A stretch of DNA of 64,000 bases. Origin: Candidatus Nanopelagicaceae bacterium. GTDB taxonomy: Bacteria > Actinomycetota > Actinomycetes > Nanopelagicales > Nanopelagicaceae. The position numbers and the translations under genes are program-made. Positions 13,288 to 34,468 of the stretch are shown in pieces (positions within the stretch are counted from its first letter, which is position 1; every line of letters starts with the position of its first letter). The DNA is taken from contig VEQG01000001.1 in assembly GCA_018883345.1 (NCBI GenBank), positions 1-64,000 of the forward strand, written 5' to 3'. The notes beneath the pieces were generated by a model. The model did no database searches. It was not told the origin of the DNA and worked only from the letters and a program-made list of their open reading frames with translations.

Positions 13288-13581
13288 ATGGCCGTATCAA
13301 TCAAGCCACTAGAAGACCGTATTGTCATTAAGCAAGGCACCGCAGAGCAGACAACTGCATCTGGTCTAGTTATTCCAGATACCGCTAAAGAGAAGCCACA
13401 GGAAGGCACTGTTGTTGCAGTTGGCCCAGGTCGATTTGATGATGGCGCTCGCGTACCAATGGATGTAAAGGTCGGCGATGTTGTTCTTTACAGCAAGTAC
13501 GGCGGAACTGAAGTTAAGTACAACAACGAAGAGTATTTAGTTCTATCAGCTCGCGACATTCTCGCAATCATCGAAAAGTAA
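13288..13581 (+). CDS. groES: Co-chaperonin GroES
   Basis: [45 protein letters not shown]. Confidence 0.98.
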
Positions 13582-13589
13582 GGCGATAA

Positions 13590-15230
<1,641 letters not shown>

Positions 15231-15246
15231 GCATCAAATAATTACG

Positions 15247-15383
15247 AAAACCTCGGCAAAGCTGAGCTTCGAATGTCCAAGCAATTTGATTACTGAGCAA
15301 AGTGAATGGTTCCACGGAACCAATAACTCTCTTAACGTAATCGAGCAACTCGGACATCTACGCTCACTTTCCCGAGGTTTTTT
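15247..15383 (+). ncRNA. Candidate structured RNA / complex terminator between groEL and guaB
   Basis: Nested complementary arms: AAAACCTCGG/CCGAGGTTTT, AAAG/CTTT, TGAGC/GCTCA, ATGTCC/GGACAT, GATTAC/GTAATC, inner hairpin TGGTTC-CACG-GAACCA; outer helix ends in T6. Confidence 0.55.
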
Positions 15384-15420
15384 AATTTCAACTACAAAAG
15401 ATAGGATGGCTGCTTATTGA

Positions 15421-17633
<2,213 letters not shown>

Positions 17634-33260: not shown

Positions 33261-34343
33261 TTAATTTAAGCGAAGTCCGGTCTGTGCATGGAATAGGTGA
33301 ATCGCAGTAGGAATCGCCTTTACCTTAATCTGCTGGCCAGCTTTAGGTGGATTCTTTGGATCCCAACGAACAATTACCTGTGCGCCTTCATCAGATGCAT
33401 TAGCAAACTTCACGTTGCTATCAGCAGGCTTGCCGTAAACGAATGCGTCAGAACCAAGTTCTTCAACAACTTCAACGTTAACCTCAAAGCCTTCAGATGC
33501 TGGTTCCCAACCTTCAGGGCGAACGCCAACAATTACTGAATTTCCTGCTGAGGCAGGAACTGCAATATCAAGGTGGCCAACATGTGCTTTGCCATCAGAT
33601 ACTGGAACTTCAAGTAAGTTCATAGCAGGCGAACCGATAAAGCCAGCAACGAATGCATTACCTGGCTTATCGTAAAGATTACGTGGGCTATCAACTTGTT
33701 GCAGCAGACCATCTTTAAGAACAGCCACGCGATCACCCATAGTCATCGCTTCAATCTGATCGTGAGTTACATAAACAGTGGTGATGCCAAGACGGCGTTG
33801 TAGAGCTGCAATCTGAGTACGTGTAGAAACACGTAGCTTTGCATCAAGGTTAGATAGCGGTTCGTCCATCAAGAAAACTTGTGGTTCGCGAACAATCGCG
33901 CGACCCATTGCAACGCGCTGACGTTGTCCACCAGATAGCGCTTTTGGTTTGCGCTCTAGATATGGTTCGAGGTCCAGAAGTTTTGCAGCTTCACGTACTC
34001 GCTTGTCACGATCTTCTTTTGATACGCCAGCAATCTTCAATGCAAATCCCATATTTTCTGCAACTGTCATATGTGGGTAAAGCGCATAAGATTGAAATAC
34101 CATCGCGATATCGCGATCTTTTGGTGCCACGTTTGTTACATCGCGATCACCAATCAAAATTCGTCCGGTATCAATCTCTTCAAGGCCCGCCAACATACGA
34201 AGTGAAGTTGATTTACCGCAACCCGATGGACCAACTAAAACTAGAAATTCTCCGTCATTAACAACGAGATCTAATTTATCTACAGCTGGTACTGGGTTGC
34301 CTGGATAGATGCGTGATGCTTTATCAAATGTTACTGAAGCCAT
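33261..34343 (-). CDS. ABC transporter ATP-binding protein, MalK/UgpC/MsiK type (carbohydrate)
   Basis: GPSGCGKSTSLRMLAGLEEID; LSGGQRQRVAMGRAIVREP; C-terminal TOBE-like regulatory domain. Confidence 0.94.
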   Translation of the reverse strand: MASVTFDKASRIYPGNPVPAVDKLDLVVNDGEFLVLVGPSGCGKSTSLRMLAGLEEIDTGRILIGDRDVTNVAPKDRDIAMVFQSYALYPHMTVAENMGFALKIAGVSKEDRDKRVREAAKLLDLEPYLERKPKALSGGQRQRVAMGRAIVREPQVFLMDEPLSNLDAKLRVSTRTQIAALQRRLGITTVYVTHDQIEAMTMGDRVAVLKDGLLQQVDSPRNLYDKPGNAFVAGFIGSPAMNLLEVPVSDGKAHVGHLDIAVPASAGNSVIVGVRPEGWEPASEGFEVNVEVVEELGSDAFVYGKPADSNVKFANASDEGAQVIVRWDPKNPPKAGQQIKVKAIPTAIHLFHAQTGLRLN

Positions 34344-34468
34344 GGCTTCTCCTTCCGGGCAGGTACGTGCCCGACGATCCGTTGGAAGTTTTACACCCTT
34401 AGGTGCGAGGCTGAGATTACGCGTAAAGCAGCGCGGAAGGAAGATAATCCGCTAACCTTTCTCATCTA

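Follow-up and report, generated by a model that had tools for sequence, protein, structure and literature searches.

A long palindromic rod downstream of groEL in a Nanopelagicaceae genome is probably an enlarged intrinsic terminator

A 137-nt imperfect palindrome that separates groEL from guaB in a Candidatus Nanopelagicaceae genome (15246..15382, plus strand) is probably an enlarged intrinsic (Rho-independent) terminator of the groES-groEL transcript, at a locus where whiB and MerR-like genes are absent and where the terminator stem may well have grown by inverted duplication. Positions are those of the window, the whole stretch of 64,000 nucleotides that was analyzed, unless another stretch is named. 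Upstream of the palindrome, an open reading frame that reads as groES (13288-13581) is followed by the frame of groEL (13596..15230, plus strand; 544 aa; Cpn60, Pfam PF00118). Downstream, guaB (15433..16539, plus strand; 368 aa; Pfam PF00478) starts with TTG, leaving a gap of ~200 nt between the two genes. The 368-residue GuaB has an IMPDH domain, with CBS domains not found by Pfam, and because the open frames of relatives are similarly long, a short GuaB that lacks CBS domains looks like a trait of the family. It is 82-86% identical to its 80 nearest records, Candidatus Planktophila genomes among them.

In its MFE fold the palindrome forms a single unbranched rod of 52 pairs. All of the complementary arms named in an earlier, sequence-only reading of this DNA are present in the rod, 37 bp in total: an outer helix of 10 bp (15247-15256/15372-15381), AAAG/CTTT of 4 bp (15258-15261/15367-15370), TGAGC/GCTCA of 5 bp (15263-15267/15362-15366), ATGTCC/GGACAT of 6 bp (15273-15278/15352-15357), GATTAC/GTAATC of 6 bp (15288-15293/15337-15342), and an apical hairpin, TGGTTC-CACG-GAACCA (15307..15322), with 6 bp (15307-15312/15317-15322) and the loop CACG. 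The base of the rod resembles that of a terminator, with the layout A4-CCTCGG...CCGAGG-T6. Its 5′ half reads AAAACCTCGG (15247..15256, plus strand) and its 3′ half, including the T-tract, reads CCGAGGTTTTTT (15372..15383, plus strand), so that the outer helix ends in T6 (15378-15383).

The structure is far more stable than expected by chance, which bears out the earlier description of it as deeply nested and RNA-like. Positions 15246-15385 on the plus strand fold at -54.4 kcal/mol (z -8.76), with none of 200 dinucleotide shuffles equally stable, and the rod is also more stable than shuffles when folded as single-stranded DNA (z -5.2). The genome was scanned as stretches amounting to 1.396 Mb of its 1.398 Mb. 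In a fold scan of 27,237 plus-strand windows of 150 nt, which covered ~80% of the chunks (248 of 308), the rod ranks fifth in energy among all rods, and of the four ranked above it, the one at the eno-divIC junction extends over the beginning of a coding sequence, while the others lie within long open frames. No other single hairpin that ends at a T-run, on the plus or the minus strand, is as stable in this genome, and in 725 kb of DNA from relatives no single T-run hairpin at -45 kcal/mol or better was found. A simple terminator scan misses the rod, as that scan accepts only stems without interruptions that close loops of 3-8 nt. Two other rods were seen in the genome. One, in stretch L220 (12784-12895), is a very stable 112-nt structure of 49 bp at -56.7 kcal/mol that extends across the eno stop codon into the beginning of a DivIC-family gene. 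The other, in stretch L192 (6162-6268), is a stable 107-nt rod with no Rfam match in a gap ahead of a reading frame, which we take to resemble the start of rpoB.

Fold energy does not identify the acting strand, because the reverse complement of the rod folds slightly better than the plus strand (-62.7 kcal/mol, z -8.96) and both folds contain 4 G-U pairs. The better minus-strand energy, and the convergent gene that relatives carry at this locus, would suit a functional form that is a minus-strand RNA or a DNA cruciform, such as a former bidirectional terminator. However, the convergent whiB gene is absent here, the T-tract on the minus strand is only T4 compared with T6 on the plus strand, and the equal G-U counts give the minus strand no advantage. 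We therefore regard this form as very improbable.

Support for plus-strand termination comes from what lies behind groEL in relatives. An automatic search of 52 relatives found a hairpin followed by at least four T residues after groEL in 41 of them. Its median distance from the stop codon is 13 nt, its median span 35 nt and its median stem 15 bp. A small number of these picks are weak, and visual inspection shows a hairpin in most of the 11 relatives that the search missed, L108 and L128 being exceptions. The rod shares with these Nanopelagicaceae groEL terminators its closeness to the groEL stop codon (it starts 15 nt past it), its sequence of A-tract, GC-rich base and T-tract, and its form as a single unbranched hairpin. 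A stable hairpin directly preceding a T-tract and lying close downstream of a stop codon is the arrangement of an intrinsic terminator. The rod differs from the terminators of relatives in its size (137 nt and 52 bp against medians of 35 nt and 15 bp), in its internal loops, and in not lying between convergent genes. It is also long by published standards, because single-hairpin terminators in a survey have an average stem of 8 bp (PMC8355165). The sequence-only reading had called the structure far beyond a minimal terminator, which is correct as to size but does not hold as an argument against termination. As the hairpins of relatives are several times shorter and none reaches -45 kcal/mol, the extra length appears unneeded for termination and may serve another role.

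From this arrangement we infer both that the rod terminates transcription and the order in which it would fold. While the rod is being transcribed, its inner helices could form first and draw the two arms towards each other. The GC-rich outer helix (CCTCGG/CCGAGG), which stacks on AAAG/CTTT and TGAGC/GCTCA, would then close as RNA polymerase reaches T6, where the RNA would be released with a stable 3′ end. In this process guaB would be insulated from the groEL transcript and would start at its own promoter just downstream.

Gene order at the locus sets this genome apart from its relatives. The typical order in relatives is groEL, a short hairpin flanked by A- and T-tracts, a convergent whiB gene, a MerR-like gene and finally guaB, which lies ~1.4 kb downstream of groEL. 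Here whiB and MerR-like are names that we assign from our reading of the sequences, with no comparison to a family library behind them. Both genes are found upstream of guaB in all 19 of the stretches spot-checked, which come from genera throughout the family; a twentieth stretch, L150, could not be placed upstream of guaB and contributes nothing to that count. The window has neither gene between groEL and guaB. Elsewhere in the genome, the best matches to WhiB are only 40-45% identical, and the MerR-like protein has no match. One of the WhiB-like matches (G000:C42:100503-100751, in L146) contains an internal stop, TGA, and may be a pseudogene or just a short frame. These searches suggest that both genes have been lost from the genome, although at 85% completeness and 6% contamination their absence elsewhere is not proof of loss. 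We infer that the change in gene order was a deletion; there is a small residual chance that the contig is misjoined at the locus. The terminator stem would have been enlarged in a lineage that lacks the whiB and MerR-like genes between groEL and guaB.

With one arm of the rod reversed and complemented, the two arms match at 50 of 69 columns (72% identity), with a score 8.7 standard units above shuffles (z 8.7). The stem was perhaps enlarged by an inverted duplication whose halves later diverged, although selection for pairing would leave the same trace.

The rod is a singleton. It has no second copy in its own genome by DNA or by structure-aware search. DNA similarity searches of 60 relatives gave short matches only, none of them spanning the rod, and revealed no homologue. 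A single-sequence covariance model, a weak tool for distant relatives, found no homologue in 120 family genomes; applied to these and the rod's own genome, it returned the rod itself on both strands and one 24-nt match at chance level. Phage and plasmid collections gave short matches, none spanning the rod, and exact patterns for two arm stretches were not found in viral contigs. The 16-nt apical hairpin is shared by 7 viral contigs. The rod matches no Rfam family, with permissive thresholds giving chance matches elsewhere and none on the rod, in agreement with the earlier failure to recognize a known family. Another part of the window (34343-34398, minus strand) matches the msiK RNA of Rfam (RF01747) at 54.3 bits, where the gathering score is 33. 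An integron attC site was considered and rejected, as GTTRRRY and RYYYAAC boxes are absent from 15231-15432 on both strands.

These searches bear on whether the rod could be the remnant of a non-autonomous palindromic mobile element, like ERIC or YPAL, that inserted behind groEL. Its length of 137 nt and full-length imperfect palindrome recall ERIC (127 bp) and RPE (105-146 bp) (PMC2229807), it is intergenic and in the size range of palindromic bacterial MITEs (ERIC, YPAL, RPE and NEMIS), and the locus is rearranged compared with relatives. Palindromic MITEs, however, occur in several copies per genome, whereas the rod is present once, is absent from the relatives, phages and plasmids searched, and by eye shows no clear target-site duplication at its ends (15235-15246 and 15383-15395); no empty site with the same neighbors is known. 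An origin as a mobile element is accordingly quite improbable.

The sequence-only reading had favored a small RNA, either derived from the 3′ untranslated region or independent, over a guaB riboswitch, and the analysis did not bear out a small RNA. Such an RNA would either be released from the groEL mRNA by an enzyme such as RNase III, which cleaves long duplexes, or end at the terminator, and would act on other transcripts. Like 3′-UTR-derived small RNAs, the rod is stable, lies at the 3′ end of a protein-coding transcript and finishes in a T-tract, and its stability far exceeds that of shuffles. In addition, the stem-loops of bacterial NEMIS repeats have been proposed as RNase III substrates (PMC2229807). 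On the other side, only 15 nt separate the rod from groEL, a simple scan reported no sigma-70-type promoter for an independent transcript in 15000-15600, and the position and base of the rod match the terminators of relatives. The rod also differs from known 3′-UTR-derived small RNAs in having no homologue, and thus no conserved unpaired seed region to look for, and in being mostly paired, which leaves little sequence for targets. We consider a small RNA of this kind unlikely. There is a similarly small chance that an inverted duplication of the terminator yielded a lineage-specific structured RNA that is freed from the groEL mRNA and acts as a small RNA or an mRNA stabilizer.

The position of the rod directly upstream of guaB could also suggest a cis-regulator of that gene, either a riboswitch or an attenuator. 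The guaB -10 element TAGGAT (15402..15407, plus strand), however, lies downstream of the T-tract of the rod, 31 nt ahead of the guaB start. Of 109 relatives, 108 carry its counterpart TAGA[CA]T ahead of guaB, at a median distance of 38 nt, and these relatives lack the rod. With no full sigma-70-type promoter reported in the region covered by the simple scan, the guaB -35 element is weak or absent. The location of the -10 element makes a guaB riboswitch unlikely, as had been argued from the sequence, and we rejected it on promoter position; with no Rfam match to the rod as well, cis-regulation of guaB is extremely improbable.

As a plain terminator, the rod changes little. Should the reading of the rod as an enlarged groES-groEL terminator be confirmed, it would clearly exemplify a terminator that has grown into a long rod in a single lineage of streamlined bacteria, where the junction has lost a pair of genes that the rest of the family keeps. 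The rod could then serve to test how terminator stems lengthen, and whether such rods turn into RNase III substrates or small RNAs.
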